Source: Candidatus Gastranaerophilales bacterium
Lineage (GTDB): Bacteria; Cyanobacteriota; Vampirovibrionia; Gastranaerophilales; Gastranaerophilaceae
Assembly (NCBI GenBank): GCA_944326515.1
Contig: CALVEI010000007.1
Span: 1 to 52,528, forward strand
Length of the DNA: 52,528 bases
Direction: 5' to 3'
Below the pieces are notes generated by a model. That model made no database searches and was not told the origin of the DNA. It saw nothing but the letters and a program-made list of their open reading frames with translations. Positions 9,267 through 30,140 of this stretch are shown here, piece by piece. Every line of letters begins with the position of its first letter. Position 1 is the stretch's first letter. The position numbers and the translations under genes were made by a program.

Positions 9267-9818
9267 TTAAGATTTACTAAATATTTCCTTTTTAATAAGT
9301 TTTAATTCTTTTGTTATTGTTCCTTTTTCTCGTTCCTTCATTGCTAATAATTCTTGCATACACTTATTATTAAAATTATTATTCACTTTATTAGGTTTTT
9401 GTAAAAAAGGCAGTTCAATAGCTTTTTGAATAAAATCTGACGGTAATGGCATTATTTTTTTATTGTTTTCAGCAAATTCAATTAATCCGTTTACACATTG
9501 TGCACCATCAAAAATTTTGCCAAACGACGTACTAGCATCAACAACTTTTTTATCATTTACAAAAATATCATACGTTGCGGCTTTGCCTTTAGACATTTTA
9601 CTATTTGGGGTTTTATCTATTTTTATAATGTCATTTAATCCATCACTTAAAATTGATTTTATTGCTTTTAAAAAATGTCTTCCTTCAAAACCTTGTGATA
9701 TAGCTTCTTCAAAGCCTTGTTCAAGATATTTTGTTGGTAAAAGTTTTGATTTAAAACTAACAGAGTTTTTATTTTTTTCAAAATTTAAAGAATAATTTTG
9801 ATTATTAATAGACAACAT
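9267..9818 (-). CDS. Lineage-specific hypothetical protein with N-terminal SFKS motif
   Basis: I do not recognise the body of this 183-residue protein. No signal peptide or membrane helix is visible. Its N-terminus contains NSVSFKSKLL (residues 17-26), a motif also seen near the N-terminus of two unrelated proteins in the window (SVSFKANL in the gene at 11305-11724 and TNFKASLL in the GH13 gene at 16072). The middle part (about 70-115) resembles nothing I can name; the C-terminus (about 150-180) is a charged helix. An AAAGGA SD lies about 9 nt before ATG, and a TAGC-A-tract element with a -10-like box lies 27-59 nt upstream (see 9845-9877). No partner gene adjoins it. Confidence 0.75.
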   Translation of the reverse strand: MLSINNQNYSLNFEKNKNSVSFKSKLLPTKYLEQGFEEAISQGFEGRHFLKAIKSILSDGLNDIIKIDKTPNSKMSKGKAATYDIFVNDKKVVDASTSFGKIFDGAQCVNGLIEFAENNKKIMPLPSDFIQKAIELPFLQKPNKVNNNFNNKCMQELLAMKEREKGTITKELKLIKKEIFSKS

Positions 9819-11304: not shown

Positions 11305-11724
11305 CTATTTTTTATAAAAAGTTTTTGCAAGATCGTCTAATACTTCTGTAACAAGCTCTTTTGTTGTATCTCCAACTCGCATTACCGTTGTATAAAAGCT
11401 TTTGCCTGCCTCTTTGGTATGCATAAGAATAGGAATATAAGCAGCTGTCATACGTTCCGGCAAAAGAGATAAACCATATTTACTTTTTTCACCAGTTATT
11501 TTTTCAGCCCCTTTTGTGGCTGTATAAGTAACATTTTGAGAAGATTTTGCAATATTACTATGCTGAAAAAAGTCTGAAAGAACTATTTCTATCTTGTCCT
11601 TTTCTGAACCAAGTTTTTGTGCAAACTTTTCAAAACTTTCAACTTCTAATTTAGTAAGCTGATTGTTGTAGTTAATAATTTTCAAATTCGCTTTGAAAGA
11701 AACGGATTTGTTTTCTAATTTCAT
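11305..11724 (-). CDS. Lineage-specific hypothetical protein with N-terminal SFKA motif
   Basis: A 139-residue protein that I do not recognise. Start chosen at the second ATG because TAGGAG lies 8 nt upstream of it, but only 2 nt from the first ATG (11730). The N-terminus MKLENKSVSFKANLKI carries the FKA motif shared with the proteins at 9267 and 16072. No signal peptide or membrane helix. The body has a mixed alpha/beta look, with KIEIVLSDFFQ, a Ser/Thr-rich stretch (SSQNVTYTATKGAEKITGE), PERMTAAYIPIL and a C-terminal helix. It follows dapL, separated from it by the dapL terminator, and no clear promoter was seen, so read-through may supply some transcript. Confidence 0.75.
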   Translation of the reverse strand: MKLENKSVSFKANLKIINYNNQLTKLEVESFEKFAQKLGSEKDKIEIVLSDFFQHSNIAKSSQNVTYTATKGAEKITGEKSKYGLSLLPERMTAAYIPILMHTKEAGKSFYTTVMRVGDTTKELVTEVLDDLAKTFYKK

Positions 11725-11748
11725 ACACATATCTCCTAATTTGTAAAA

Positions 11749-15992: not shown

Positions 15993-16020
15993 TTTAAAAA
16001 TCTATTTTTATAAGAAAAAC

Positions 16021-16050
16021 AAAAAAGCTTCGAAAATTCGAAGCTTTTTT
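16021..16050. terminator. Bidirectional terminator
   Basis: AAAAAAGCTTCGAA / TTCGAAGCTTTTTT forms a perfect 14-bp stem with A and T runs on both sides, between the convergent genes ending at 15992 and 16072. Confidence 0.9.
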
Positions 16051-16071
16051 ATTATTAAAACTATCTACCAA

Positions 16072-18342
16072 TTATAAATACTGTTGTAAAACTTCTCCGC
16101 CTTGAGCTTTTATATCTTGTTCAAGGTTAGGTGTGTTAACTTCAAAAATGTGAGCTTGAGCAGGACCAAGATCAATATCTATAGCATTGTTTTCTGCTTT
16201 CCATTCACTGCCTGAACCATATTTTGGTGAAAGATCATTAAGCTGTTGAGAAGCAGACAATCCTGGAATTTCGACCTTAACATGTTGTCTTGAGTTAACA
16301 TCGTGGTTTGCAATAGTGATGAGAGTTTTTCCATCTTTACATCTTGCATATGCAATAACTTCATCAATTTTATTATTATCCACTTTTAAAGGAATATAAG
16401 AACCTTTTGTAATCAACTCACCATATTTTGGTCTTACACAGTTCATAAGATAACCAAAATGGTGACCTATTTCAGGGTGATTGCCTTTAGGTTGTCTTGA
16501 TTCGTTGAAGATATCAATACGCTGAGTGTGAACATAGTATTTAATGTTATCTTTTGTCAGCATATTGTTTTCAAAATATTCTATAATATTTTGAAAACCT
16601 GAATTCTTATCAGCAAGTGCTTCTATTTTTTGGTTTTTAGCGTCAGAATTCATTAATTCTTTTATGTTTTTATAGTCTCTTGCTGTATCCATAACATTTG
16701 TCAATATAGTGTTAAAACTGTTATTTTTTACAGCAGCACTAAGAGAAATGTTTTTGTCTATAGGTTCATGGTTTTTGTTATATGCTTCTAACAAAAATTT
16801 GATTGTTGCAGAATATCTTGAATCATTTTCTAACTCAGCAAGAGATCTGTTTTTGTCAGCTGTTTTTTCTAAATTTGAAATAACAGGAGCGTAATCCAAA
16901 GATTTCATCATATAGTCAACAGACTCTTTATAAAGAGGATTGCTTAACATCTGAGCAAAAGTTTTATCTATGTATTTTTTATCATAGTCATAAAGATATC
17001 TATCGCCTGATTCATAACCTGAAATAATATAAGGGTTAGTCATAGGTACTGTTGTTTGAACGACGTTTGTCATCATACAATAATCTGGGCCACCGTGTGA
17101 CATAGGGCTGTCATCATCATGAGTAGCAAATGAACCGATTAATGATTTACCTTTTGGTAAGATTCGTTCGCCAGTTTGGGCATCTTTTGAAATGTTAAGA
17201 CTTTCTTTCATAAAGTCTTGGAAATCTTTAGCCTTCCACATATGGAAAATGTGGTACTGACCGTAATAAGAATCAAATCCTGCTTTTAAAGCATCAAAAG
17301 GACGGTCTGCAGGCATGTTTTTCATAGGAGAAGCATCTTCGTTTGTATAACATTCTGCCAAGAATGCAAACTCAGGGTCTTTGCTTCTTGCATAAGATGT
17401 TAAATGATCCCAAAATTCAGGTGGTTTAGCTCTTCCTACATCGGCTCTTATGCCATCTATACCAAGGTCTATGCACATATCAACAAATTTTTTGTGATAA
17501 TCATATAATGCTTTGTTCAATATTTTATTATCTTCATCTTGCCATGGGCTGAACATTCTAATATCTTCCCAACCTTCAGGAGTTTTTGGGTTTCCCGCAG
17601 CATCTGTTGCTCTTAAATCAGGTCTTGCTTCGTACAAGTCAACAGACATACAGCTCGGCAAGTCAACCATAACTTTAATATCACGCTTGTGGCATTCTTT
17701 TATAGCATCTTTTGCTTCTTCATAAACATTCTTTGGATTTGTAGGATCGTCAAGTTTAGGGTCTATTGCAAGATAATCCAACGGAGCATATACAGAACCG
17801 GCACTGCCTTTAGCTGCCTTTAATCCGGGAGGGTTAATCGGCAAAAGGTGTAATGTATTGATACCATAAGTTTTTAACTCATCAAGTCTTTCTACCATAG
17901 TAGAAAAATATCCCGGTCTTTCATTACCTTGAATAAGACCGTTACCGTCAGTGTCTTTTGCTGTAAACGTTCTTGGAATCAACGCAAAAATAACAGCCTG
18001 ATTGTTTTGAAACATTGAACGAAGATTGTTCCTATAATTCAAAGGAGCTTCTGTCTGAGCAACTGCAGCAACAGGAGCTGAAGCCACAACAGATTGAGCA
18101 GCGTTAGCATATTTAGGTTTATTCATCAAAACATTCAGCAAACTTCCTGCTGCATATTTTGTATTGTATTTATCTGCAATTGGTGTTGTAACTGGAACAT
18201 AAGCAGGAACTTGAGCAGGAGTCTGTGACGTGTTAAGAGCTTGTGTCGCAGGCATTGCAGAATGTTGCTGCATCATCTGTGTTAATAATGAAGCTTTAAA
18301 ATTAGTTTTATGAGTGTTGATTGTATTCAAGCTAATGTTCAT
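16072..18342 (-). CDS. Divergent GH13 alpha-amylase-family protein
   Basis: A 756-residue protein with a Gln/Ala/Pro-rich N-terminal 100 residues, then a GH13 barrel. Seen: Ca-binding-like loop DTDGNGLIQGNE (130-141), LKTYGINTLHLLPINPP, region II GIDGIRADVGRA with nucleophile D301, region III FLAECYTNED with acid/base E330, and region IV FATHDD with H408 and D409. Region I reads MVDLPSCMS, so the usual Asn-His pair is absent. A helical insertion (about 460-600) and a C-terminal beta domain (about 670-735) follow. There is no signal peptide; the N-terminus instead has TNFKASLL. It is the last gene of a three-gene operon, 2 nt after its neighbour, with SD AAGGAG inside that neighbour. Catalysis on an alpha-glucan is likely; the exact reaction is not known. 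Confidence 0.85.
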   Translation of the reverse strand: MNISLNTINTHKTNFKASLLTQMMQQHSAMPATQALNTSQTPAQVPAYVPVTTPIADKYNTKYAAGSLLNVLMNKPKYANAAQSVVASAPVAAVAQTEAPLNYRNNLRSMFQNNQAVIFALIPRTFTAKDTDGNGLIQGNERPGYFSTMVERLDELKTYGINTLHLLPINPPGLKAAKGSAGSVYAPLDYLAIDPKLDDPTNPKNVYEEAKDAIKECHKRDIKVMVDLPSCMSVDLYEARPDLRATDAAGNPKTPEGWEDIRMFSPWQDEDNKILNKALYDYHKKFVDMCIDLGIDGIRADVGRAKPPEFWDHLTSYARSKDPEFAFLAECYTNEDASPMKNMPADRPFDALKAGFDSYYGQYHIFHMWKAKDFQDFMKESLNISKDAQTGERILPKGKSLIGSFATHDDDSPMSHGGPDYCMMTNVVQTTVPMTNPYIISGYESGDRYLYDYDKKYIDKTFAQMLSNPLYKESVDYMMKSLDYAPVISNLEKTADKNRSLAELENDSRYSATIKFLLEAYNKNHEPIDKNISLSAAVKNNSFNTILTNVMDTARDYKNIKELMNSDAKNQKIEALADKNSGFQNIIEYFENNMLTKDNIKYYVHTQRIDIFNESRQPKGNHPEIGHHFGYLMNCVRPKYGELITKGSYIPLKVDNNKIDEVIAYARCKDGKTLITIANHDVNSRQHVKVEIPGLSASQQLNDLSPKYGSGSEWKAENNAIDIDLGPAQAHIFEVNTPNLEQDIKAQGGEVLQQYL

Positions 18343-18344
18343 AA

Positions 18345-21300
18345 TTATTTATCTGCTCCTTGTGGCGTATTGATATACTCATAATTATCTTTGTTGAAAT
18401 AATTTTTCTTGCCCATAAGCGCAATTGTTAAGGCACTAACAGCAAGAGTTCCGCCTAATAATCCGTAAACAAGTTTTGACCATTTATTTCTTGCTCTTAT
18501 TTCTTGAGCGGCATTTGTAAAGAAGTCTGTAACATTCTTTCCAGACATTTGAGAAATAGCTCTGTTAGATTCCCAAAAATCTAAACGTTGAGCAACAGAC
18601 TCAATTGCTGGTTGCAATTTATAACCGGAAATTTTTTCATATTGTTTACCAAGAAACTCACCCAATGTCTTTTTGCAACTATTGAAATCTTCTGGACTCA
18701 AATAGAATCTTCTTTCTTCAAGAATATCCATCAAGAATTTATATGCTTCTTCTGAACCATTGTGTGCAAATTCGGCTACTTTTGAATAGAAAGCATTTCT
18801 TTCTGTTGTATAACCGCCAAACAATTTGTTTTCAATACGTAAGAATCTTGCTCTCATGCAAGTGTTGATTTTATCACATCTATTTGCAAAGCTTGGGTTG
18901 TCTAAAGCACTAACAGTATCTGCACCGAGTTTGCCAAATATTTTATCTGCAACTTTTTTAACTAATGCAAATGAATGTTTCATACCTTGTTTAGAACCAG
19001 GTAGTTCTGTTTCAAATTTAGTTGTCCAGTTATTAATATCATTCTTTTGTAAAATTGCATCTTTCAAGAATGATTCTAAAGATTCTTTAGCTTGAGTATA
19101 AGACATCTTATGGAAAGGATAGTAAACTTGTCCCTTCAAAGGTTGTCTCTTATCGTTTGCTATAAGCGCATTGTATGCAGCTTCGTTAGCACCAAGTATG
19201 TCTTTAACTTCGTTTTTAATATCCTTGAATAAATCAAGAACTTTAACTGGTCTTATGTAAGAATCTTGAGTATTTATAACTTTACGTCTAACTTCTGCAA
19301 TTCTTAGATTAAAATGTCTGCTTAAAACATCTTTTACATCGTGACCAAAGTTGTCAGCTGCAACTGCTTCCATAAGTTCTTTAACTTTAAGTAAAGTACC
19401 TTTTTTATTAGGTGTACCTATTAATTGAATAACAGCTTTTTCTTCTTTTGTAATAGCTGTTTCTGCATATTTAGCCATTTCTTTTAAGGCTGTTTTATAT
19501 TTTTCAGGATCTTGAACAAGCTCTGTCAATCTCTTGCTCAAAACTTTGCTTGCAGTTGTCGCATCTTGTGTTGCAATGAGAGCAATTTCACCTTTATTCA
19601 AACCTAAAGTTTGCAAATATTTTTTCGGAACACGCTGCCAATTGATAGCAGTCATTGATTCAGAAATATTTTGTATAGAAGTTCTTTCAAATTCTTTTAA
19701 TTTGTTTTGAAGTTCGTTATTTGTATAAGCAAATTTGAATATTTGACGCATTCTGTCTTTTGGTATGACATAATATCTTTTTGTATCAAAATAAGCTTTT
19801 ACCTTTGCATTGATAACTTCTTTTACCTCGTTAGTTACTTGACGCATAGCATTTCTTTGAGGCATTTTAAGTTCTTGGTAAGCACCATTTGTACCTGCAA
19901 AATTTTCTATAGCTTTTTTAGAAATAGCCTGTTCAAGACCATTTTGAGCATTGTAGCCAAGTTGGTAACCTGAGTTATGATGCAATATATCATTGACCTG
20001 ATGTTCTTTTAAACCATCAGAATACAACACCCCACTTAGCATTTCATTAAGCTGTGCATCATTAAGACCTGTATAATTCAATAAATTTTCAGGAAGTAAG
20101 TTTTTAGCTTTTTCAGGTATTCTATCAAGAACTTCTCTATAAGCTTCTGTTGTAATTTGTTTAATAGTATCTTTAAGCTCCTTGCTGACCAATACACGAG
20201 GTTCTGTCATATCCATACCTCTTGTCATTGCAGCTTTTAAAGAGTCGTGATAGCCTGTTCCAAAGAATGTAGCATCAATGTATCTTTGTAATTTTTTGAA
20301 CTGTTTAGGTGATAAAGCTTCGTTTTCTGTCATCAAAGCTTCCAATTTTTGAGAAGCAGCAGGATCAACTTTAATATTCAAAGCATCCATAACAGTATTC
20401 AAATCTTTTCTGTCATACTTCAATAATTCATCAACTTTAGCATCTAATTTTTGAAGTTTAGCAGCAGCTTTTTCGTATCTTGTTTTTTCCAAGTAATTTT
20501 GCAATGGTGTTTGCAACGCATCAGCAGCAATTGAAGAAACAACAGGAGTCATAACACCTGCGGTCATCATCCAAAGAGTTTTACCTTGAACAGCAACTTG
20601 ACCCATTTTATTCATAGTAGCTTCGTTTCTGTTCTTAATGTTTCTTGGAATACCTAAATCATCGCCTACTTTGTCAAGATAAGCATAATCGTTTGAATAT
20701 TTTTTGTAATATTCTTCTTCTGACAAAGGCCTGCCTTTAACATCTACATGCCTGTAAATATCCATCGGACGATAGCCATTGTCTTCGAAAACATATTTTT
20801 TTCTGCCTTCTGAATCAATATATTTTTGGTTTATATCAACACCATACAAAGCTTTAATCGGAGCACCTAAAATATGCGGCCATATAGCCATAGATGCAAA
20901 CCAAGTACCTAAGCCGACAAATTCCATTCCTTTGGCAAACGGAAACATTTTTGATGTAGCCAAAACAGCAGCAATACCTAAAGAACCTGCTCTAATAGAT
21001 AAATCATTAATTTTACCTACGCTGTAATCTTTACCTTCACCTTTAAAAGCAGCTTTATAAAAATATTTTGCATAGTCAGCATAAGATTTGACAGTATTAC
21101 CAACAGACTGGAAAAAGTTTTCATGTATAATTCTTGCTTTAGAAGCGTGAGCAGTAACCCCTTTTGGAGTAGTGTGAGGATCACTTAAAGGTTTTGCCGG
21201 AATATAAGAGTATTTTTGTGTTTGTGGAAAGGGATTTGTTATATCAATCACTTCTCTTTTTGCAGGTGCAGCAGCATTAACAGCAGCGGGGATATTTTGC

Positions 21301-21350
21301 TGTTTAATCTGTGGTTTATAAACAGGTATTGAAGTTAGTAAATCGCCCAT
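18345..21350 (-). CDS. Large membrane-anchored helical protein, unknown function
   Basis: A 1001-residue protein that I do not recognise. Residues 1-75 are Pro/Ala/Lys-rich and probably disordered. Hydrophobic segments lie at about 120-165 (RAGSLGIAAVLATSKMF, FVGLGTWFASMAIW), 257-280 (LWMMTAGVMTPVVSSIAADA) and near the C-terminus at 961-981 (VYGLLGGTLAVSALTIALMG). The 650 residues between the last two are helical, Lys-rich, and lack enzyme motifs. The segment after the first helices (GVDINQKY to LGIP, about 168-235) resembles the corresponding part of the upstream gene product, suggesting paralogous N-terminal modules. The ATG directly adjoins the stop codon of the upstream gene and an SD GAGGTG lies in it, so the genes are coupled. 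Confidence 0.8.
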   Translation of the reverse strand: MGDLLTSIPVYKPQIKQQNIPAAVNAAAPAKREVIDITNPFPQTQKYSYIPAKPLSDPHTTPKGVTAHASKARIIHENFFQSVGNTVKSYADYAKYFYKAAFKGEGKDYSVGKINDLSIRAGSLGIAAVLATSKMFPFAKGMEFVGLGTWFASMAIWPHILGAPIKALYGVDINQKYIDSEGRKKYVFEDNGYRPMDIYRHVDVKGRPLSEEEYYKKYSNDYAYLDKVGDDLGIPRNIKNRNEATMNKMGQVAVQGKTLWMMTAGVMTPVVSSIAADALQTPLQNYLEKTRYEKAAAKLQKLDAKVDELLKYDRKDLNTVMDALNIKVDPAASQKLEALMTENEALSPKQFKKLQRYIDATFFGTGYHDSLKAAMTRGMDMTEPRVLVSKELKDTIKQITTEAYREVLDRIPEKAKNLLPENLLNYTGLNDAQLNEMLSGVLYSDGLKEHQVNDILHHNSGYQLGYNAQNGLEQAISKKAIENFAGTNGAYQELKMPQRNAMRQVTNEVKEVINAKVKAYFDTKRYYVIPKDRMRQIFKFAYTNNELQNKLKEFERTSIQNISESMTAINWQRVPKKYLQTLGLNKGEIALIATQDATTASKVLSKRLTELVQDPEKYKTALKEMAKYAETAITKEEKAVIQLIGTPNKKGTLLKVKELMEAVAADNFGHDVKDVLSRHFNLRIAEVRRKVINTQDSYIRPVKVLDLFKDIKNEVKDILGANEAAYNALIANDKRQPLKGQVYYPFHKMSYTQAKESLESFLKDAILQKNDINNWTTKFETELPGSKQGMKHSFALVKKVADKIFGKLGADTVSALDNPSFANRCDKINTCMRARFLRIENKLFGGYTTERNAFYSKVAEFAHNGSEEAYKFLMDILEERRFYLSPEDFNSCKKTLGEFLGKQYEKISGYKLQPAIESVAQRLDFWESNRAISQMSGKNVTDFFTNAAQEIRARNKWSKLVYGLLGGTLAVSALTIALMGKKNYFNKDNYEYINTPQGADK

Positions 21351-22496
21351 CTATTTTTGCACCTCTTTAATTTTGTTGTTTCCTGTTGTTTCCAACTTAT
21401 GATCTTTGGCTGATGTTTTTGTCACAAGCAATGATATTGCTGTCAAAGTAGCAGCGGCAGTAGCAAGAATCACGGACTTACCTGCTATAGAAGACCCCTT
21501 GCTGTGACCTTTCCAAAACTCCGTAAAGCTTTTGCCAAAAGGTTTTAATATGTAGTCATAAGCTGCAACTTTAGCACTGTGCAATCTTTCTTTAAAATCT
21601 ACATTTTTACCAAATATTCCTTGAGTAATAGTCTTTTTAAAACCCTCTGCAGAAGTAGCATCCCAAGCAGGTTGGTTAGCCATACCAACACCAAGTGTTA
21701 CAAAAAACGCTGTCAGTGCATATTGCCATGCACGAGCCATGACTATTGTCTTTTTAATCAACGGCTTAATTGTAGAATCAATGTTATTGGCATCATCTTT
21801 AATACCGTATTTTTTACCGTATTCAATATAATTTTCGTTAATTTGTTCAGGCGTTTTACCTTTTTTGTTATATAGCAAGTCTGTTCTTGTAAAATCCGCA
21901 CTTTCAAATGCTGTATGGAACTCAACATTCTTCTTAAATAAACCGGATTTTCTTGATTGCGAAGGAACAAAGTGTGCGTATGGTTGTTTTAAATCAATAC
22001 CTCTTGTTAGTCTAACCGTGTTATTAATTATAGACTTAGCCAATGCAGCACCCACATAGTACAAACCAACGCCTAATGCCATATGTTTTGCAACTTTTTG
22101 AGCTGCACCAGCTGACCTAAAGTTATCTTTTTTTACACCTGCATAAAACAATGCAGCAAGTATAGGACCACCTATGTAATAAGGAAACTTTGCAGTTTGT
22201 AGAAATTCAAAAAATGTATAATCAGGAGCACCACCCAAACCTCTTGGGAAATGTACCAAAGGAATATCAAGGGTTTTTTCAATATTGATTTTAATACGTT
22301 TTCCTAACGTATTTTTCTTTACTAATTCATCCTCATGTATATCATTTTTATAATAGCTGAGACTGTGATTTACTTCTTTTTGAGGTACTACAGGCAGCTG
22401 ATTAGTATTTTGTGCAGAATTATTATTCTGAGAGCTTAGAGCTGAAGGCACGGTGCTATTAACCAAATTATTTTGAACAGTTGATACAGTAACCAT
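21351..22496 (-). CDS. Membrane protein, unknown function; first gene of the GH13 operon
   Basis: A 381-residue protein, not recognised. Residues 1-50 are Asn/Ser/Gln-rich and probably disordered; no signal peptide. Likely membrane helices: 100-116 (YYIGGPILAALFYAGV), 136-156 (MALGVGLYYVGAALAKSI), 253-273 (WQYALTAFFVTLGVGMA) and 342-361 (VILATAAATLTAISLLV). Between helices two and three the sequence GIDLKQPYAHF through KYGI parallels GVDINQKY through LGI in the next gene. SD AAGGGAAA lies about 6 nt before ATG, and a TAGC-A-tract promoter element is 62 nt upstream. Operon context with a GH13 protein suggests a role in handling or localising an alpha-glucan, which is inference. Confidence 0.8.
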   Translation of the reverse strand: MVTVSTVQNNLVNSTVPSALSSQNNNSAQNTNQLPVVPQKEVNHSLSYYKNDIHEDELVKKNTLGKRIKINIEKTLDIPLVHFPRGLGGAPDYTFFEFLQTAKFPYYIGGPILAALFYAGVKKDNFRSAGAAQKVAKHMALGVGLYYVGAALAKSIINNTVRLTRGIDLKQPYAHFVPSQSRKSGLFKKNVEFHTAFESADFTRTDLLYNKKGKTPEQINENYIEYGKKYGIKDDANNIDSTIKPLIKKTIVMARAWQYALTAFFVTLGVGMANQPAWDATSAEGFKKTITQGIFGKNVDFKERLHSAKVAAYDYILKPFGKSFTEFWKGHSKGSSIAGKSVILATAAATLTAISLLVTKTSAKDHKLETTGNNKIKEVQK

Positions 22497-22525
22497 AATT
22501 TCCCTTGAATCGCATGTAAGTCCTG

Positions 22526-22558
22526 TTTATACAAGACTCCTAAAAATATTTTTTGCTA
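22526..22558 (-). promoter_or_regulatory. TAGC-A-tract promoter element, copy 2
   Basis: On the minus strand TAGCAAAAAA (22558 down to 22549) is followed by TATAAA starting 27 nt from its first base (22531-22526); the ATG at 22496 is 62 nt from the first base. The remaining upstream stretch to 22695 is AT-rich and contains one TTCCCCAATT motif near 22578. Confidence 0.55.
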
Positions 22559-22695
22559 GTAATTTTAAAGGATTTTTTCCCCAATTCCTACAATCTAGTC
22601 TATCACGGTATTTCAAAGAAAAAAATTCTTTTTACATTTTGTAATATTTATAGGTATAGCACTTATTACCGTTTTTTTGATTACACACTTTGTTA

Positions 22696-25440
22696 TCACT
22701 CAATTACCATATCTTTGTAATAAATAGATTTGGACCAATTATCAATGTTAAAAATATTATCTTTAACATGTTTAAATGTAGAATTTTCATTTAGTGGTCT
22801 ATTTTTTCGATAAAATTGCGAAGGATTCCAATCATCATGATCTTGCAAAATATATACACCTTTTTGCTTTTCATTAGAAGATAAAATTTTTCTTGTAAAA
22901 GGATTCCTCGGGTTACAAATTATACCATCTGTAGCAATTAGAGGAACATCAGCATTTGTCATAAAACTGTTATCAAATTTAATATTTCCTTTTGCATTAA
23001 AATCTTTCACAAACAAAACTGAATTAAAATTCATTATTGTCTCATTAATTTCTGAATCAAAATAAGGGTTATTCACACCCATCCCACCATGATCAGAAAC
23101 AATTATTATTCTTGTATTATCATATACATTATTTTTCTTAAGATATTCAAGGTAATCACCTATTAAAAGCCAAGCAGCAGCATTGACGTGATAATGCATT
23201 AAAGAATTTGTATCAACATCAATCGGTTTACCAGGATTAGGCTTATCAGTCAATTTGTATGAAGGATAAGACAAAAATGTTGCGGAATGAGTAAGCTCAT
23301 TATTAATAACAATAAAAGATGATTTTTTAGAAGAAAAATCAGTTAACCTTGGTAAGTAAAACAATTCTGCATAACTTTCAACCAAAAAAGCAGACGTTCT
23401 AGACTCACCAGCTAGATTATTAACATCAAGATATCGGCCATCATCATAAATAAATTTCTTTAAAAATAATGGGGCAACCTTCATGAAACTAAAATAGAGC
23501 ATATTTCTTGACAATATTATTGCTGTTTTCTTATCCGCATTAAGGTATTTAGACTTATAAAATTTGCCGAGTTTACCTTTTACGTTTTCATATTTAATCC
23601 CATTATTAGTAAATAACTTATATGGTGTTATATCTTGATAATTCCCCCAAGGAGCGTCTGTTACCGTAACATTCCAACCTGCATCCTTAAATATAGTTGG
23701 GAGTAATAATAAAGCTTGATTATGCTTTTCAACCATAGATTCTTTATCCCGTTTATCAAGATTCAAAGGAGTATATTCATATCCTCCCATCAAAGCAGGA
23801 TAACCCATTATTGTATGGCCGTAATAAGATACGGTATTTGGATAATAAACAAAGCCTGTATATATTTTTTTAAGTTCAGGTTTTTCTTCAAAAATCAAAG
23901 GCAAATAAGAACTAATTGCCCGATCTATCATTATTATTAAAACATTTTTTTCTTTTTTACTAAAACTATATAAGTTATCTGCCAATAATTTGCTATTTTC
24001 TTCAGCTGTGGCAAATTTATTTTCTAATAACTTACCACTTTTTATAGTAACATTATAGCTACTATAAGTATTATATATTTTAACAAAATTTACTATACCG
24101 ATTCCTAAAAAAGCAATCAACAAAAATATCATTATTTTGCTAAGAATAACAATCTTTTTTTTAACAAAAAATAAACAGGTAATCGCAAAACAAACTACAA
24201 GAAAAATATTATTTAATAATATCTCTATAGTACTATACTCTATTTTCCACATAACATCGTATGACAATGTATTTGACATTGCCCCAGAAAAACAAGGAAC
24301 AAAAAGCCAACTAAATAAAGATAAAAAAGTTATTCCAACCAAAACTAACGGCAATATTTTTTTTAATTTTTCTGAAGAAAAATAATATAAAACACTACCC
24401 CAAAAAATAAAAAAGCCAAATGATTGTACAAGACTTATAAAAATAAAAGGAAAAGGAGATGAATAAGGATCAATAAAAGAAAAATCTATTGGCGATGAAG
24501 CAATTAAATTAGAAGGAATAACTAAACCAGTTAAAAGCCACAAAACAACACACGCAAGAAAATATAAATTCTTAGATTCTGCCTGCCATAACCAACATAA
24601 ATCCAATTTTATATGCTCTTTGTTAACTTTAAAAAACCAATAAATAAACCCAATAAAGCCCAAAAACGACAATAATAATATATTTAATTTAGGAAGATTT
24701 ATCTTCATTATGTAATGTAAAAGCCCGATGAAAATACTAATCAAAATAGTATTTAAAAACAATTTTGGAGATTTACACTTAAGCCCAATGTTTTTAATAA
24801 GAGAGAATAAATTATTACACGTCCAGTACAAAACCAAGCCTGCAGGCGAGTTATATAATATAACAAGAAAAACTAAAGCAAATATCCAAATTTGTATTCT
24901 ATCTCGCAAAGTTTGATCTTTTGCATAAATTTCCCCTGCTACAAGATTTATTACAGTCATAATTATAGGTAGAGCATTTATAGATAATCCATAAAACGAC
25001 AAAAGCCCATCAGGTTTTGACAAATCTGAAATCATCCACAAATCTAAACCGTTTAATAACTTCAAATGACTAAAAAAGAAATATGCTGCAGTAAAAAACG
25101 GTATTTGCAACAACAGACTCAAACTGGTTCTCAAAGACATGATAGGATGATAATTATTCTGGCGATAATATGTCGCCAAAAGCATGTGTTTTTCATCACC
25201 TTTAAAATTCTTTTTTATGCAATCAACACGTTTTTTTAATTTAGCTTGTATTTCTCTTTCTTCTTTTTGCAGCTTTTCAGCATTTATATAAAGAGGTAAA
25301 CAAATTAAATTTATTATAAAACTAATAACAAATATGGTAATGGCGATATTACAGCCAAAAAAGTAGTGAAAAAACCTAAATATTACTTCCAAACCCATAT
25401 AGAGAGGGTAAACAACTATCTGAAATAAAAGGTCTAGCAT
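22696..25440 (-). CDS. YidC/Oxa1-like membrane domain fused to an alkaline-phosphatase/sulfatase-superfamily domain
   Basis: A 914-residue inner-membrane protein with two parts. Residues 1-220 look like a YidC/Oxa1 insertase: CNIAITIFVISF helix, cytoplasmic charged hairpin (about 55-95), LSLLLQIPFFTAAYFFFSHL (107-126) and the family mark YNSPAGLVLYWTCNNLFSL (196-214). The groove Arg of YidC aligns with N44 (FIINLICLPLY). Residues 225-460 add about six more helices. Residues 495-900 form an alkaline-phosphatase-superfamily domain like sulfatases, LtaS and phosphoethanolamine transferases: LIIMID506, GHT543IMGYPALMGG (probable nucleophile) and VSDHGG (781-786). It overlaps the upstream TagB/F-like gene by 7 nt. 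A role in moving or hydrolysing glycerol-phosphate groups on the outer face is inferred from neighbours; it is not the housekeeping YidC. Confidence 0.85.
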   Translation of the reverse strand: MLDLLFQIVVYPLYMGLEVIFRFFHYFFGCNIAITIFVISFIINLICLPLYINAEKLQKEEREIQAKLKKRVDCIKKNFKGDEKHMLLATYYRQNNYHPIMSLRTSLSLLLQIPFFTAAYFFFSHLKLLNGLDLWMISDLSKPDGLLSFYGLSINALPIIMTVINLVAGEIYAKDQTLRDRIQIWIFALVFLVILYNSPAGLVLYWTCNNLFSLIKNIGLKCKSPKLFLNTILISIFIGLLHYIMKINLPKLNILLLSFLGFIGFIYWFFKVNKEHIKLDLCWLWQAESKNLYFLACVVLWLLTGLVIPSNLIASSPIDFSFIDPYSSPFPFIFISLVQSFGFFIFWGSVLYYFSSEKLKKILPLVLVGITFLSLFSWLFVPCFSGAMSNTLSYDVMWKIEYSTIEILLNNIFLVVCFAITCLFFVKKKIVILSKIMIFLLIAFLGIGIVNFVKIYNTYSSYNVTIKSGKLLENKFATAEENSKLLADNLYSFSKKEKNVLIIMIDRAISSYLPLIFEEKPELKKIYTGFVYYPNTVSYYGHTIMGYPALMGGYEYTPLNLDKRDKESMVEKHNQALLLLPTIFKDAGWNVTVTDAPWGNYQDITPYKLFTNNGIKYENVKGKLGKFYKSKYLNADKKTAIILSRNMLYFSFMKVAPLFLKKFIYDDGRYLDVNNLAGESRTSAFLVESYAELFYLPRLTDFSSKKSSFIVINNELTHSATFLSYPSYKLTDKPNPGKPIDVDTNSLMHYHVNAAAWLLIGDYLEYLKKNNVYDNTRIIIVSDHGGMGVNNPYFDSEINETIMNFNSVLFVKDFNAKGNIKFDNSFMTNADVPLIATDGIICNPRNPFTRKILSSNEKQKGVYILQDHDDWNPSQFYRKNRPLNENSTFKHVKDNIFNIDNWSKSIYYKDMVIE

Positions 25441-26729
25441 TTAGAAAGCTCCTTTTGTTTTTCAATTAAATAATCTGCTACATTCTTTGCACTTTGTCCT
25501 TGTTTTTGCCAAGCAATACTTTTGGCTCTTTGTATGGCAGATAAAATTTCTTCGTTTTGAGACATGTTTTTTATTATGGAAATAATATCTTTAAAATTAT
25601 CTTTTGTCAGTTCCGTGCCTATTTCTTTAATTGCTTTATAACGCCAAGGCTCTTCATCCAAATCACTCATATCATAAATTTCTTTATTCATTTCCTGATT
25701 TACGTATATGAAAGGTCTTTCAAATAAAAATGCGTAATCAAAAATTATTCCAGAAAAATCGCTGATTAAAATATCTGCCTTAGACAAAATTTCAAAATTA
25801 TCCACGTCGAAATTCCAACTTACATTTTTATTGTTTTCATATCTTTTTTGAAGACTCTCAATTATATCTGTTTCAACAATACTCGACTGAGGATGAGGAC
25901 GTATAACAATATTCCAAGAAGAATCTGCCAAAATATCTAGTAACTCTGCACCATATTTTTTTAAAATAGCATTTTCTCCCCAACTTGGGGCAACAAGAAT
26001 ATTAAAATCACCATTTTTGTTAGGAAGTGATTCTAATCGTTGACTTAACAAATCCATATAAGTACAACCTGTTACAACAAGGTCTTTTGGCGGTAAATTT
26101 CTTTTTCTTTCTATCTCTCTTATCATAGGAATCTGAAACTCTGCATCACACAATACTGCATCGTAATAATCCAAAGAGAACAATCGATAAACTAAAGAAG
26201 ATGTAACAGCATGAAATATATGACAATAATATTTTGTATATTTTGAACGTTTTAGTTGAAACACATCAAGCCCTGGTGTAGTCATAAGACAAACATCAGC
26301 TTTCAAAAAAGCTAACTTTAAATAAGCTTCAAAATTCTTGCCAATATATTCACCTTTCACATATTCATAATGACATTTAAAAAAAGGATCATCTTGCGAT
26401 GACGTATAAAAAACTAAAGGAATTTGTCTTTTTTCAAATTCGTCTAAAACCGGTTTAAATACATTAAAATATTGACGACCTTCCGAGTAAATAACGAAAG
26501 GTATCGTATTTTTGCACAAATCTTTTTGCGAGAAAAAAAGAGTCTTTAACTTTATAACTAAAGAATTGAAAAGAAAAAATAAAGTTGCACTAATACCAAC
26601 AACAACAGAAAAGAGCATACTGCCAGTTCCTGGGTCTATATAGGCCAAAGCAGGATATTGCCACACAAATAAAACAAAAACTATATAAAAACATTTTTTA
26701 AAAAAATTAAACTGACGCAACAATTGCAT
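25434..26729 (-). CDS. CDP-glycerol:glycerophosphate glycerophosphotransferase family (TagB/TagF-like)
   Basis: A 431-residue GT-B-type enzyme of the Glyphos_transf family, which uses CDP-glycerol (or CDP-ribitol) to add polyol phosphate to a lipid-linked acceptor at the inner membrane. A hydrophobic N-terminus (about 13-60) contains the peculiar YIDPGTGSML motif between two helices. The catalytic region has HIFHAVTSS (170-178, the conserved HG-like helix position), VAPSWGENAIL (246-256), RPHPQS (277-282) and LISDFSGIIFDYAF (321-334), the typical C-terminal donor-binding signature. It overlaps the methyltransferase gene by 23 nt upstream and the YidC-fusion gene by 7 nt downstream, so all four genes are translationally linked. 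Confidence 0.87.
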   Translation of the reverse strand: MQLLRQFNFFKKCFYIVFVLFVWQYPALAYIDPGTGSMLFSVVVGISATLFFLFNSLVIKLKTLFFSQKDLCKNTIPFVIYSEGRQYFNVFKPVLDEFEKRQIPLVFYTSSQDDPFFKCHYEYVKGEYIGKNFEAYLKLAFLKADVCLMTTPGLDVFQLKRSKYTKYYCHIFHAVTSSLVYRLFSLDYYDAVLCDAEFQIPMIREIERKRNLPPKDLVVTGCTYMDLLSQRLESLPNKNGDFNILVAPSWGENAILKKYGAELLDILADSSWNIVIRPHPQSSIVETDIIESLQKRYENNKNVSWNFDVDNFEILSKADILISDFSGIIFDYAFLFERPFIYVNQEMNKEIYDMSDLDEEPWRYKAIKEIGTELTKDNFKDIISIIKNMSQNEEILSAIQRAKSIAWQKQGQSAKNVADYLIEKQKELSKC

Positions 26730-27342
26730 AAAAATGTGTATTCTCCCATCTGTTACATTCTTTAGGATAAATATCTATACAATCGACAGTTTTGAAGCCA
26801 ATATTTTTCAACAAAGTTATTTCAGAATCAATATACCTGTATTGAGAATAATAATTGCACTTTAATTCCTCAGAATATCCCTCTACCGTAACATCTTCAT
26901 TTACTCCAAATTGATGTTTAATTATCAATTTTCCTTTATTGTTCAAAAATTCTTTATATTTTCTATATAAAAATACAGACTCTTCACGATTAAAATAATG
27001 AGTAACTCCAAACATAAGAATCAAATCATATTTTGAATCAGGTACAAAATCAACTATGTCAGAATTTATGACCGCAACATTAGATGCCTTTACTATAAAA
27101 TCAGAAAACTGGCTAAATTTCTCAACCGCAGTAACATGTCCAACTCTATCATAATATTTGTTCAATGTTATCCCAGTACCAGCAGCAAGATCTAAGATGG
27201 TTGTATTTTTATCAGCATATTTGAGAATAAAATCTTTATCATAATCAGAAAAATCATTTATATCTGAAACTTTTGAGGCTTTTATAGTCGGATTAGACTC
27301 TGCTTTATTTTTCCAATAAGTAAGGCTCTGCTTGTTATCCAT
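26707..27342 (-). CDS. Class I SAM-dependent methyltransferase
   Basis: A 211-residue soluble enzyme. SAM-binding motif I ILDLAAGTG lies at 49-57, an acidic loop follows (VTAVEKFSQF, 74-83), then INSDIVDF (motif II region) and YDLILMFGVTHYF (motif post-I/IV region). No target-specific domain is visible, so the substrate is unknown. Its ATG shares one base with the stop codon of the cytidylyltransferase gene (TAATG), and it overlaps the next gene by 23 nt. From the context the acceptor could be a glycerol-phosphate or lipid-linked intermediate of the same pathway; this is inference. Confidence 0.85.
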   Translation of the reverse strand: MDNKQSLTYWKNKAESNPTIKASKVSDINDFSDYDKDFILKYADKNTTILDLAAGTGITLNKYYDRVGHVTAVEKFSQFSDFIVKASNVAVINSDIVDFVPDSKYDLILMFGVTHYFNREESVFLYRKYKEFLNNKGKLIIKHQFGVNEDVTVEGYSEELKCNYYSQYRYIDSEITLLKNIGFKTVDCIDIYPKECNRWENTHFYAIVASV

Positions 27343-27779
27343 TATGCTCTTTGCCTCATATCTGAAATTTTTTGAATTATCTTGGAAGAACTAACCTCAT
27401 TTGTGTAAGGAAGATAAACAACTTTTACACCCAATTCTTTTAATTGTTTTTCCCAAACCTCATATCGTGCATCGCCATACCAGTCAGAACCAACAAAAAG
27501 AATATCAAATTTATATTTGTTATATAATTCAACTTTTTCTAAAGTATCTTCAGGAACAACTACATCACAATATTTACAGGCTTTTAAAATCTCCATTCTG
27601 TCATTTAAAGCATATATTGGTTCTCTCTTATTATTTAACATATACTCGTCAGAACACACCCCAACAATGAGAGTGTCGCAAAGTGCCCTTGCATTTCTCA
27701 ACAAATTTATATGTCCTATATGAAACAAATCAAAACAACCTAAAGTAAACCCTACAACTCTATCTATCTTATTTGACAT
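27342..27779 (-). CDS. Glycerol-3-phosphate cytidylyltransferase-like protein (TagD family)
   Basis: A 145-residue nucleotidyltransferase. It shows GCFDLFHIGH at 14-23 (the HxGH of the cytidylyltransferase superfamily), RMEILKACKYCDVVVPED, FVGSDWYGDARYE, and the C-terminal VVYLPYTNEVSSSKI, which parallels the S-T-T-K-I segment of TagD. TagD makes CDP-glycerol from CTP and glycerol-3-phosphate for teichoic acid. The longest frame begins at 27848, but the conserved domain starts just after the ATG at 27779, which has GGAAAG upstream. It heads a four-gene overlapping operon with a TagB/TagF-like enzyme. Another polyol or amino-alcohol phosphate as substrate is possible. Confidence 0.85.
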   Translation of the reverse strand: MSNKIDRVVGFTLGCFDLFHIGHINLLRNARALCDTLIVGVCSDEYMLNNKREPIYALNDRMEILKACKYCDVVVPEDTLEKVELYNKYKFDILFVGSDWYGDARYEVWEKQLKELGVKVVYLPYTNEVSSSKIIQKISDMRQRA

Positions 27780-27826
27780 AAATATTACTTTCCAAATTAA
27801 AAATAAAAACTTTGCCTTTAAAAAAA

Positions 27827-27855
27827 TTATAATAAAAACCTGAAACAAATAACAA
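27827..27855 (-). promoter_or_regulatory. Promoter of the TagD/TagF-like operon
   Basis: On the minus strand TTGTTA (27855-27850), 17 nt, then TATAAT (27832-27827). This leaves a leader of about 40 nt before the ATG at 27779 and excludes the longer frame start at 27848 from being transcribed in full. Confidence 0.6.
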
Positions 27856-28014: not shown

Positions 28015-28518
28015 ATGCCTTTTCGTTACAGACTCCAAAAAATTCTGGATTTCAGAATAAGAAAAAAAGAAGAACAGCTCCAAAATGTCCGCAACGCTCA
28101 GGCAATAGTGCTAAAAATCGAAGGACTTATTGAAAGGAATAACAAAGAAATAGCTTCAACAAGACAAAATATGCGACAAGCAGACTTTATGATGTACGAA
28201 TCATACGATACATATCTAAAACACCTTTATGTAAAAGGAGAAAGTCTTGAAGCGGATAGACAAAAAGCACAAGAGGCTCTCGACATAGAAAAAGACAAAC
28301 TAAGAGAACTTGAAAAAGCTGTAAAAGTACTTGAAAAACACAAAGAACACTGCAAAGAAGCCTATATCGAAGAAGAAAAAAAAGCAGAACTAAAACAACT
28401 TTCAGAAGTCGCAATCCAAAAATACTTTGCAAAAACAAAAGAAAAACAAGAAGAAGAACAAGAAGAACTTCTTAAAGAATTAATGAAAAACCCTCTATAC
28501 AATGAAGAAGGAACATAA
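28015..28518 (+). CDS. fliJ: Flagellar export chaperone FliJ
   Basis: A 167-residue, almost wholly alpha-helical protein that starts MPFRYRLQKILDFRIRKKEE, the FliJ N-terminal pattern (F-x-F/Y-x-L-x-x-x-L/I-x-x-R). FliJ forms a coiled-coil stalk in the FliI ATPase ring and helps FlhA use the proton motive force. Coiled-coil heptads run through residues 15-155. No Shine-Dalgarno is apparent before the ATG. It heads a three-gene unit with the FliK-like gene (5 nt gap) and a hook/rod gene (3 nt gap), about 5 kb away from fliI. Confidence 0.85.
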   Translation: MPFRYRLQKILDFRIRKKEEQLQNVRNAQAIVLKIEGLIERNNKEIASTRQNMRQADFMMYESYDTYLKHLYVKGESLEADRQKAQEALDIEKDKLRELEKAVKVLEKHKEHCKEAYIEEEKKAELKQLSEVAIQKYFAKTKEKQEEEQEELLKELMKNPLYNEEGT

Positions 28519-28523
28519 TAAAA

Positions 28524-29300
28524 ATGAATGTTACAACAAGTAATACAACAACAGCAACAAAAACAGAAACCATCCAAACCAGAGATAATGATAACGAGAT
28601 AAAATCATCATCTTCATCAAAGGATGAAAAAGTTTCTTCTTCATCAAAAACAGAAGAAAAAAAAGACGAAAAAACAGATGAAAAGAAAAACGACTTTAAA
28701 ACCGTTTTAGAAGAACAAAAAAATACAGATAAAATCCCTGCCGACCAAATGCAGCAGCAAAACAATCAAAACTTGAACATGATAAATGAACAATATGTAA
28801 ACAAGTTTGGATTTGATACCGCATCAGACCTCAAAAATATAAAATCAATGTATAACTACGATACATTTAAAATTTCTAAAGACGATGCAAAGTTTTTTGC
28901 TGACCTTGTAGAAAATAAACAATTTGCTATCCAACAAAACGGCGACAAAACTAATGTCATAAAATTTGCCGATGAAATAGGTCCAACATACAAAACCCAA
29001 GAAACCTCAAAGGTTTTAACAGATTTAATAAACAAGGCCTATAACGAACAAAAACCTGTCAGAATAAGTTTTGACAACAATGTTTCAGTCATATTAAAAA
29101 TCGACACAAAAGGAAAAGTTTCTGCAGAATTTATCCCCGGAGATAAAGCAGTAGAAATGTATCTAAGAAATAATATCGACTATTTAAAACAAAGATTTGA
29201 TGACCAAAACCTTCCTTATAATGACTTGTTCTACAGGCAATCAAATAACGGACAAAAAAATAAAGACAGACAAAATCAACAACAAGATAAAGGAGAGTAA
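28524..29300 (+). CDS. FliK-like flagellar hook-length control protein
   Basis: A 258-residue protein. The N-terminal 65 residues are Ser/Thr/Lys/Asp-rich low complexity. Residues 170-235 (RISFDNNVSVILKI, GKVSAEFIPGDKAVEMYLRN, NIDYLKQRFDDQNLPYNDLF) have the pattern of the FliK C-terminal domain, in which an L-x-L-x-P-like strand, a V-x-A/V-x-F strand and a helix with L-x-x-x-L-x-x-G/N-L follow one another. FliK is exported and switches substrate specificity when the hook is complete. At 258 aa it is short for FliK (often over 350). Its place between fliJ and a hook/rod gene supports the call. Confidence 0.65.
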   Translation: MNVTTSNTTTATKTETIQTRDNDNEIKSSSSSKDEKVSSSSKTEEKKDEKTDEKKNDFKTVLEEQKNTDKIPADQMQQQNNQNLNMINEQYVNKFGFDTASDLKNIKSMYNYDTFKISKDDAKFFADLVENKQFAIQQNGDKTNVIKFADEIGPTYKTQETSKVLTDLINKAYNEQKPVRISFDNNVSVILKIDTKGKVSAEFIPGDKAVEMYLRNNIDYLKQRFDDQNLPYNDLFYRQSNNGQKNKDRQNQQQDKGE

Positions 29301-29303
29301 TAA

Positions 29304-30140
29304 ATGAATGATTCATTCGTAAACGCTCTAAATACACAAAAATCTACAACCGACTGGATGGATGCGATTTCCGAAAACTTAACAAACATCTATACCCCAG
29401 GTTATAGAGAAACCCAAGCAACCTTTAAAACATTTTTAAACTCTGCCATTATCGACGGATTTAACAAAAATGTGGGCCAAGGTAAATCAACTCCGGGTAC
29501 ATCTAACGAAAACGTTTTCCTTGAAGGTGAAGGATACTTTACATTACGTCGTTCAGACGGACAAATTGTATATTCAAGACTTGGTGAGTTCACCTTTGAT
29601 AAGGAAGGTGTATATAAAAACCCAAGCGGATACACTGTGCAAGGCTATATTCTGAACGATAAGGGTGAAATTATGCAAGGCACAAAACCTATTGATGCTG
29701 ATATCTACGCAGAAACTGGCATCAAAGGCGGTGCAGTAAACTTGCCTACAACAAACATCAAATTGTGGATTGACCCTAATAACGGAAAATACCTAGGAAA
29801 ATATGATGAATTTGAATTCAAAGGCGACGGAATCCTATACGGTAAATCTGACGGAGGTAAAAACGTAGTACCTCTTTATAAACTTGCAATTATGAACTTC
29901 CACAACCCTGAAGGTTTATACGAAGTGAAACAAGGCGAATTCATCGAAACAGCGGAATCAGGAAGACCTGTCATAGGTAGAGGCGAAGTCAGAGGCGGCT
30001 TGTTAGAAATGTCCAACTGTGACTTTAAAGCCAATATCACATACTACCAACAGGCAAAAATGCAGCTGGATGTAGCCAACAAACTTATTTCTACAAACAA
30101 ATCACTGCTTCAAGAAGTTTTGCAGTTGATTAGTTCATAA
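29304..30140 (+). CDS. Flagellar hook/rod protein (FlgE/FlgF/FlgG family)
   Basis: A 278-residue axial protein. The N-terminal helix (residues 1-40, with MDAISENLTNIYTPGYRET in the place of the family's N-N-x-A-N-x-x-T-x-G-Y-K motif), the central EGEGYFTLRRSDGQIVYSR followed by GEFTFDKEGVYKNPSGYTVQ, and the C-terminal helix GGLLEMSNCDFKANITYYQQ to LLQEVLQLISS fit the family. Length matches FlgF/FlgG rod proteins better than FlgE. It ends the fliJ unit; SD AGGAGAG lies 7 nt before ATG. It would be exported by the flagellar type III apparatus and build the rod or hook. Which member it is cannot be settled. Confidence 0.85.
   Translation: MNDSFVNALNTQKSTTDWMDAISENLTNIYTPGYRETQATFKTFLNSAIIDGFNKNVGQGKSTPGTSNENVFLEGEGYFTLRRSDGQIVYSRLGEFTFDKEGVYKNPSGYTVQGYILNDKGEIMQGTKPIDADIYAETGIKGGAVNLPTTNIKLWIDPNNGKYLGKYDEFEFKGDGILYGKSDGGKNVVPLYKLAIMNFHNPEGLYEVKQGEFIETAESGRPVIGRGEVRGGLLEMSNCDFKANITYYQQAKMQLDVANKLISTNKSLLQEVLQLISS

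Follow-up and report, generated by a model that had tools for sequence, protein, structure and literature searches.

A GH13 protein and two related membrane proteins encoded together in Gastranaerophilales may form a membrane-bound alpha-glucan-processing unit

Three adjacent genes lie on the minus strand of a 52,528-nucleotide stretch of DNA from a Candidatus Gastranaerophilales bacterium (contig CALVEI010000007.1 of assembly GCA_944326515.1; this whole stretch is called the window below). They encode two membrane proteins of 381 and 1001 residues, here called P381 and P1001, and a member of the GH13 family. The initial annotation described the three as coupled, with intergenic gaps of 0 and 2 nucleotides, and the coordinates of the open reading frames bear this out. 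Based upon comparison of these proteins and their gene context across relatives, we think it probable that the trio is one membrane-bound unit that processes alpha-glucan, with the GH13 protein held on a platform of P381 and P1001. The three genes are:

21351..22496, minus strand: P381 gene (gene 1), an open reading frame of 381 amino acids
18345..21350, minus strand: P1001 gene (gene 2), an open reading frame of 1001 amino acids
16072..18342, minus strand: GH13 gene (gene 3), an open reading frame of 756 amino acids

P381 has four hydrophobic segments, and P1001 likewise has four. Their AlphaFold models are mostly helical, with a mean predicted local distance difference test score (pLDDT) of 74 for P381 and 85 for P1001, and the N-termini, which had been called disordered from the sequence, indeed fall below a pLDDT of 50 at residues 1-48 of P381 and 1-66 of P1001. 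When the profiles of the two families were compared with hhalign, they aligned over 193 columns (probability 97.8, E-value 1e-12). Searches with the single profiles recovered the same relationship from both sides: the P381 profile matched the P1001 protein of one genome (G021) at 7e-5, and the P1001 profile in turn found P381 proteins in other orders, at E-values as low as 1e-10. On the strength of this alignment and both cross-matches, P381 and P1001 are judged to be paralogues built on one four-helix plan, in which P1001 carries a large insert between the third and fourth transmembrane helices. In other orders this helical insert measures about 250-330 residues. The corresponding features in the window are:

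P381 residues 101-119, 139-157, 256-274 and 341-359, minus-strand gene: predicted transmembrane helices, preceded by the disordered tail
21654..22340, minus strand: part of P381 homologous to P1001 (residues 53-281; hhalign)
20493..21152, minus strand: part of P1001 homologous to P381 (residues 67-286; hhalign)
18471..20492, minus strand: predicted helical insert of P1001 between transmembrane helices 3 and 4 (residues 287-960; AlphaFold model, pLDDT mostly 85-97)

Neither membrane protein had matched a family recognised by the initial annotation, and Pfam and fold searches likewise gave no confident match. A Pfam scan of the window's P381 returned no family, and among 48 members each of P381 and P1001 no family was common, with single-member matches only, at E-values of 2e-4 or weaker (for P381, two families that each matched one member of the 48). 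Foldseek searches of the PDB with both models gave no match at an E-value of 0.001 or below, and the best VIA-align Z-score was 6.7 for each protein, in the range of common helical arrangements. Matches of the models to BAR-type, apolipoprotein and XPR1-type helical structures fall within the chance range for helical models and were rejected. Against solved sequences, P381 matched nothing up to an E-value of 1, and the scattered weak matches of P1001 (best E-value 0.009, mostly to helical proteins, many of them designed) were not accepted.

The GH13 protein consists of a tail (residues 1-100, containing NFKASLL), a barrel (about 101-455), an insert of about 130 residues (about 460-595) and a C-terminal beta domain; the insert is genus-specific, present in the window's protein and its closest relatives, and other families are without it. 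As first proposed, the N-terminus carries no signal peptide when judged by eye, and no lipoprotein signal was seen by eye at the N-termini of 50 GH13 proteins. A profile search against solved chains matched GH13 structures at an E-value of 1e-25, with the Thermotoga maltodextrin glycosyltransferase, bacterial alpha-amylases and GlgE among the best solved relatives. Among the NCBIfam equivalog models listed (TreS, MalA, GlgX, pullulanase and others), the highest score was 36 bits; their cut-offs lie at about 500-2100. A weak match of the barrel to a GlgB-named entry in a defence-system library was rejected. The catalytic Asp, Glu and Asp of GH13 regions II, III and IV are present and near-universal across the class, as listed here with counts of readable alignment rows, first for members of the order and then for members of other orders; the roles are those we presume from the GH13 family at large:

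17440..17442, minus strand: codon of D301, predicted nucleophile (D in 48/48 and 12/12 rows)
17353..17355, minus strand: codon of E330, predicted acid/base (E in 48/48 and 12/12 rows)
17116..17118, minus strand: codon of D409, predicted transition-state stabiliser (D in 49/49 and 11/12 rows)

Region I, in contrast, reads DLPSC, unlike common GH13 enzymes, in which the usual pattern is DxxxNH. A second GH13 protein of the same lineage occurs in 34 of the 36 genomes of the window's family and was not seen in G002 and G033. This paralogue (for example, L283:122-1711) shares 37-46% identity and the same catalytic residues with the trio protein, but it bears a signal peptide, read by eye in four copies, and no membrane partners were seen for it. 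In an unrooted tree of 35 of the 67 GH13 rows, the trio proteins of the order, those of other orders and the signal-peptide-bearing paralogue form three separate groups.

The trio recurs in relatives, a check that the initial annotation had suggested. We compared the 80 loci with the best GH13 scores in a collection of named genomes, most of these loci being from Candidatus Gastranaerophilales; this choice by score is uninformative on more distant GH13 genes without the membrane pair, such as the signal-peptide-bearing paralogue. All three genes were present at 76 of the 80 loci, and contig ends truncate the remaining four. The order P381-P1001-GH13 is kept at 75 loci, with median gaps of 0 and -1 nucleotides, and L200, where the GH13 gene comes first, is the sole exception among complete loci. 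The genes flanking the trio differ between genera. Because the trio members are present at 80, 79 and 76 of the loci, compared with at most 33 of 80 for the best flanking families, the neighbourhood is beyond chance. The two membrane proteins occur in an identical set of 50 of 59 relatives, and the concern that they might be found mostly without the GH13 gene was not realised: 49 of the 50 genomes also encode a GH13 of the trio type, and in the exception (G026) the contig breaks off within the second gene. In G008 the GH13 gene is split between two contigs; G039 has P381 on one contig and P1001 and GH13 on another. The alignments of P381, P1001 and GH13 (A1, A2 and A3) hold 48, 48 and 47 rows of 50, near-duplicates or cut rows being omitted. 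The P381 homologue of G039 (L106:1763-3658) is an unusually long frame of 631 amino acids.

Beyond the order, 146 genomes drawn evenly from the class were scanned for P381, which was found in 65 of them: 52 in the window's family and 13 in families f9 and f15 of other orders. The remaining 81 genomes were without P381, and 61 of these are given without a family. The 13 genomes of other orders yielded 14 loci, in 13 of which P381, P1001 and GH13 are contiguous, including one (L268) where GH13 is cut by a contig end; the fourteenth, in G129, is cut by a contig end, and the other two genes lie on another contig of the same genome. At three loci of other orders, a P1001 homologue and GH13 form one open reading frame:

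L259 (genome G081): fusion of 986 amino acids
L267 (genome G059): fusion of 1030 amino acids
L269 (genome G070): fusion of 1082 amino acids

The fusions read, in order, tail, helices 1-3, helical part, helix 4 and GH13 domain, and G081 has an unfused copy of the trio too (L260). Judged from sequence, these fusions are the strongest evidence that the trio is a physical unit. Because P1001 has four helices, its C-terminus is predicted to lie on the same side of the membrane as its N-terminal tail, and the fusion would put GH13 on that side.

Genes for alpha-glucan metabolism adjoin the trio in family f9. In 8 of 9 genomes of this family, one family of large proteins (1278-1493 amino acids) and one MFS family adjoin P381; two of the three large proteins tested exceed the cut-off of the Pfam alpha-amylase model, and a single MFS protein, scored against NCBIfam, was best matched, below cut-off, by the sucrose symporter subfamily, a disaccharide-type transporter. 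At two f9 loci (L257 and L261, in genomes G105 and G092) the trio adjoins a GT5-like (starch-synthase-like) protein, and in G070 the genes for a GT5-like protein, a GH77 4-alpha-glucanotransferase (MalQ) and a phosphorylase stand in a row with the trio. Co-occurrence with glycogen genes was assessed in 53 genomes chosen by hand: 26 with P381, 7 of the same order without it and 20 of other orders without it. GlgA scored above cut-off in 22 of the 26 and in none of the 20, and GlgC in 22 of the 26, 5 of the 7 and none of the 20; the window's genome has both. In four genomes with P381 (G041, G046, G059 and G070) GlgA and GlgC fall below cut-off, and all four have a GT5-like protein.

We propose that P381 and P1001 would together form a membrane platform, to which P1001 would add its large helical domain between the third and fourth helices, and that GH13 would be held on this platform beside the P1001 C-terminus. 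The enzyme would act on an alpha-1,4-glucan, either glycogen or maltodextrin, as a hydrolase or a 4-alpha-glucanotransferase, most likely on the cytoplasmic face beside the glycogen enzymes. The parts of this proposal differ in strength. The sequences themselves show that the operon is conserved, that the two membrane proteins are paralogues, that P1001 and GH13 are fused in three genomes and that the catalytic residues are intact. A physical complex is likely in species without the fusion as well, the gene context makes an alpha-glucan the probable substrate, and we lean towards the cytoplasmic side for GH13, though not strongly.

Several observations weigh against this proposal. The window's GH13 scores 20.0 bits with the Pfam alpha-amylase model, below the cut-off of 22, as do the fusions L259 (20.0 bits) and L269 (17.8 bits); a member from the order, L171 (28.1 bits), and the fusion L267 (27.4 bits) are above it. 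The large protein of L269 has no Pfam match, and no alpha-glucan gene was seen adjoining the trio in the window's own order. By the positive-inside rule the lysine and arginine sums tie, and no side of the membrane is favoured. GlgA is found in all 7 order genomes without P381, so glycogen does not require the trio. The GlgA/GlgC profile, with exceptions in both directions, tracks phylogeny and is not independent, and it serves as supporting evidence only. Finally, the GT5-like protein was found in 17 of the 26 genomes with P381 and in 0 of the 27 without it, a zero that is biased by a profile made from 11 trio-bearing genomes and by the omission of the GT5-type long frames of G044, G064 and G075.

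Four other readings of the trio were considered. First, it could be a complex for alpha-glucan synthesis and export, in which the membrane pair moves or holds the nascent glucan while GH13, on the outside, links chains or shortens them, with a function like that of the fungal alpha-glucan synthase Ags1. The single polypeptides with GH13 and several membrane helices in three genomes would suit this arrangement, as would the starch-synthase-like protein that adjoins the trio at two loci (L257, L261) and is encoded close by in G070. Ags1 joins GH13-like extracellular, synthase and multi-transmembrane domains (PMC5753165). However, in Ags1 the GH13, GT5 and multi-transmembrane parts form one polypeptide, whereas the three fusions here join transmembrane and GH13 parts only and the GT5-like protein, near the trio in some genomes, is separate. 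In addition, neither the trio GH13 nor the fusion has a signal peptide by eye, the signal-peptide-bearing paralogue suggests that ordinary export is used for a GH13 protein in these bacteria, and the GT5-like protein occurs in only 17 of the 26 trio genomes. We consider an export complex unlikely on balance.

Second, GH13 could belong to a cell-envelope saccharide system and modify a sugar of the lipid-linked or lipopolysaccharide type instead of alpha-glucan. The initial annotation had left both possibilities standing, as an alpha-glucan or surface-saccharide system at the membrane; the three fusions and the f9 alpha-glucan genes favour the former, and the latter draws on the gene neighbourhood in part of the order. 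HAD, PTPS and BacA genes lie near or upstream of the trio at 33 of the 80 loci (one member of each tested), and SIS/CBS genes lie near it at 22 of the 80 (one member tested); we take the HAD gene to be KdsC-like and the SIS/CBS gene KdsD-like. But no HAD, PTPS or BacA genes were seen at the trio loci of the window's genus; the upstream genes there are of flagellar type (18 of the 80 loci). Such envelope genes were not seen in other orders either, and in f9 the neighbours are alpha-glucan genes. An envelope role thus appears quite unlikely. Third, the genes could share an operon while their products never touch, which we regard as improbable given the P1001-GH13 fusion in three genomes and the conservation of the trio while the flanking genes change. 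Finally, GH13 could serve a membrane complex as a structural subunit without catalysis. Its departure from common enzymes in region I would be an argument for this, and animal amino-acid transporters, whose heavy chains are GH13-like, a precedent. Such a role is highly improbable, as almost every readable row across the class retains D301, E330 and D409.

The membrane-bound alpha-glucan-processing unit that we favour resembles several known systems in part. Two GH13 maltosyltransferases, the Thermotoga maltodextrin glycosyltransferase (PDB 1gju) and GlgE (for example, 3zss), are among the best solved matches of the trio GH13, and the D301 and E330 regions align with 1gju; the similarity is local only, about 190 profile positions aligning for GlgE at an E-value of 9e-15, and no curated model scores above cut-off. 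No GlgE model was among the NCBIfam matches, and whether NCBIfam holds one was not checked. The Thermotoga enzyme and GlgE are both soluble. The classical GlgC-GlgA pathway, whose enzymes are likewise soluble, usually accompanies the trio but is below cut-off in 4 of the 26 trio-bearing genomes tested. In Sus-type systems an alpha-amylase-family enzyme is tied to the membrane, as proposed here; those amylases, however, are outer-membrane lipoproteins that work with SusC and SusD, whereas the trio GH13 has no lipoprotein signal by eye and its partners are P381 and P1001.

Bacterial glycogen enzymes are usually regarded as soluble. A membrane pair kept across the class, and even fused to GH13, would, if the proposal holds, point to a spatial organisation of bacterial alpha-glucan metabolism. 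The trio would bring no new chemistry; rather, a common enzyme family has been given an unexplained membrane seat. It would also open a first route to the function of two membrane-protein families that have no known relative, in a large and barely cultured group of gut bacteria. Genome papers report that members of this group can store or use glycogen, and the available parts of their texts make no mention of such a membrane unit (PMC5877343, PMC4040986, PMC3787301). In literature listings and the papers cited here, searches on glycogen and glycoside hydrolases (GH13) in Gastranaerophilales, Melainabacteria and Vampirovibrionia, and on membrane-linked alpha-glucan systems, gave no description of the trio. 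The words transmembrane, membrane-bound, membrane-associated and anchored are absent from the available portion of a review from 2024 on alpha-glucan enzymes in prokaryotes (PMC11046441).

The operon is preceded by a conserved leader and followed by a hairpin:

22497..22560, minus strand: conserved leader and putative promoter region
22558-22549, minus strand: TAGCAAAAAA, the TAGC-A-tract element
22531-22526, minus strand: TATAAA
22506-22502, minus strand: AAGGG
16018..16053, minus strand: terminator-like hairpin of 16 pairs, 3' of gene 3

The initial annotation had proposed a promoter of the TAGC-A-tract type. TAGCAAAAAA is present as claimed, and TAGCAAAA lies 5' of gene 1, within a conserved leader of about 60 nucleotides, at 21 of 22 same-genus loci; at the twenty-second (L126) the assigned start of the frame is too far upstream to judge. 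The element is a putative promoter of this operon in the genus. Across whole genomes, TAGC(N)AAA precedes 20 of 294 genes in a near relative, compared with 9.9 in shuffles, and 7 of 264 genes in a distant family, compared with 7.8; because of the latter figure, it is no general promoter class of the order.

Polar tails with a short motif such as VSFKS, VSFKA, ISFKG or VRFSG start many proteins, including those encoded at 9267-9818 and 11305-11730 of the window (both minus strand), proteins of L241, L274 and L276, and the GT5-like proteins. The large proteins of f9 adjoin the trio in L257, L258, L259, L261, L262, L267, L269 and L270, most of them with an FSGYR- or FAGY-type tail. Proteome-wide the signal is weak, with 26 of 558 windows at residues 5-54 against 17 of 553 and 18 of 485 further in; SFK-type peptides were not among the top in a tripeptide scan, and a first motif count and tail test were mixed. 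The motif was therefore dropped as an order-wide signal. By family, the pattern [VILT]xF[SGAKTQ], picked after part of the data had been seen (two other patterns were weaker or mixed), is found in 11 of 24 P381 tails compared with 2.97 in shuffled tails (none of 2000 shuffles as high), in 11 of 11 GT5-like tails compared with 4.78 (0 as high) and in 7 of 8 tails of trio-adjoining large proteins compared with 2.5 (1 as high). GH13 tails (6 of 25 compared with 5.2) and P1001 tails (1 of 26 compared with 2.6) show no enrichment. We treat the motif as a lead only. It would fit a bolder and rather unlikely version of the membrane unit, an undescribed bacterial alpha-glucan machine. In this version the two paralogous scaffolds would recruit GH13 and, through a tail motif common to P381, the large amylase-domain protein and the GT5-like synthase, further glucan enzymes, and the synthesis, remodelling or export of glucan would be concentrated at a single membrane site.

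Upstream of the trio, the window encodes a 914-residue protein (22696-25440, minus strand) in which a YidC/60KD_IMP domain (86 bits) precedes a sulfatase-type domain (30 bits), a pairing that we do not know from elsewhere. Together with glycerophosphotransferase-like, methyltransferase and cytidylyltransferase genes it makes up a block (22696-27848) that separates the trio from flagellar-type genes (28015-30140). Genes of that type stand immediately before the trio in the near relative G006, and the four-gene block therefore looks to have been either inserted in the window or lost in G006.

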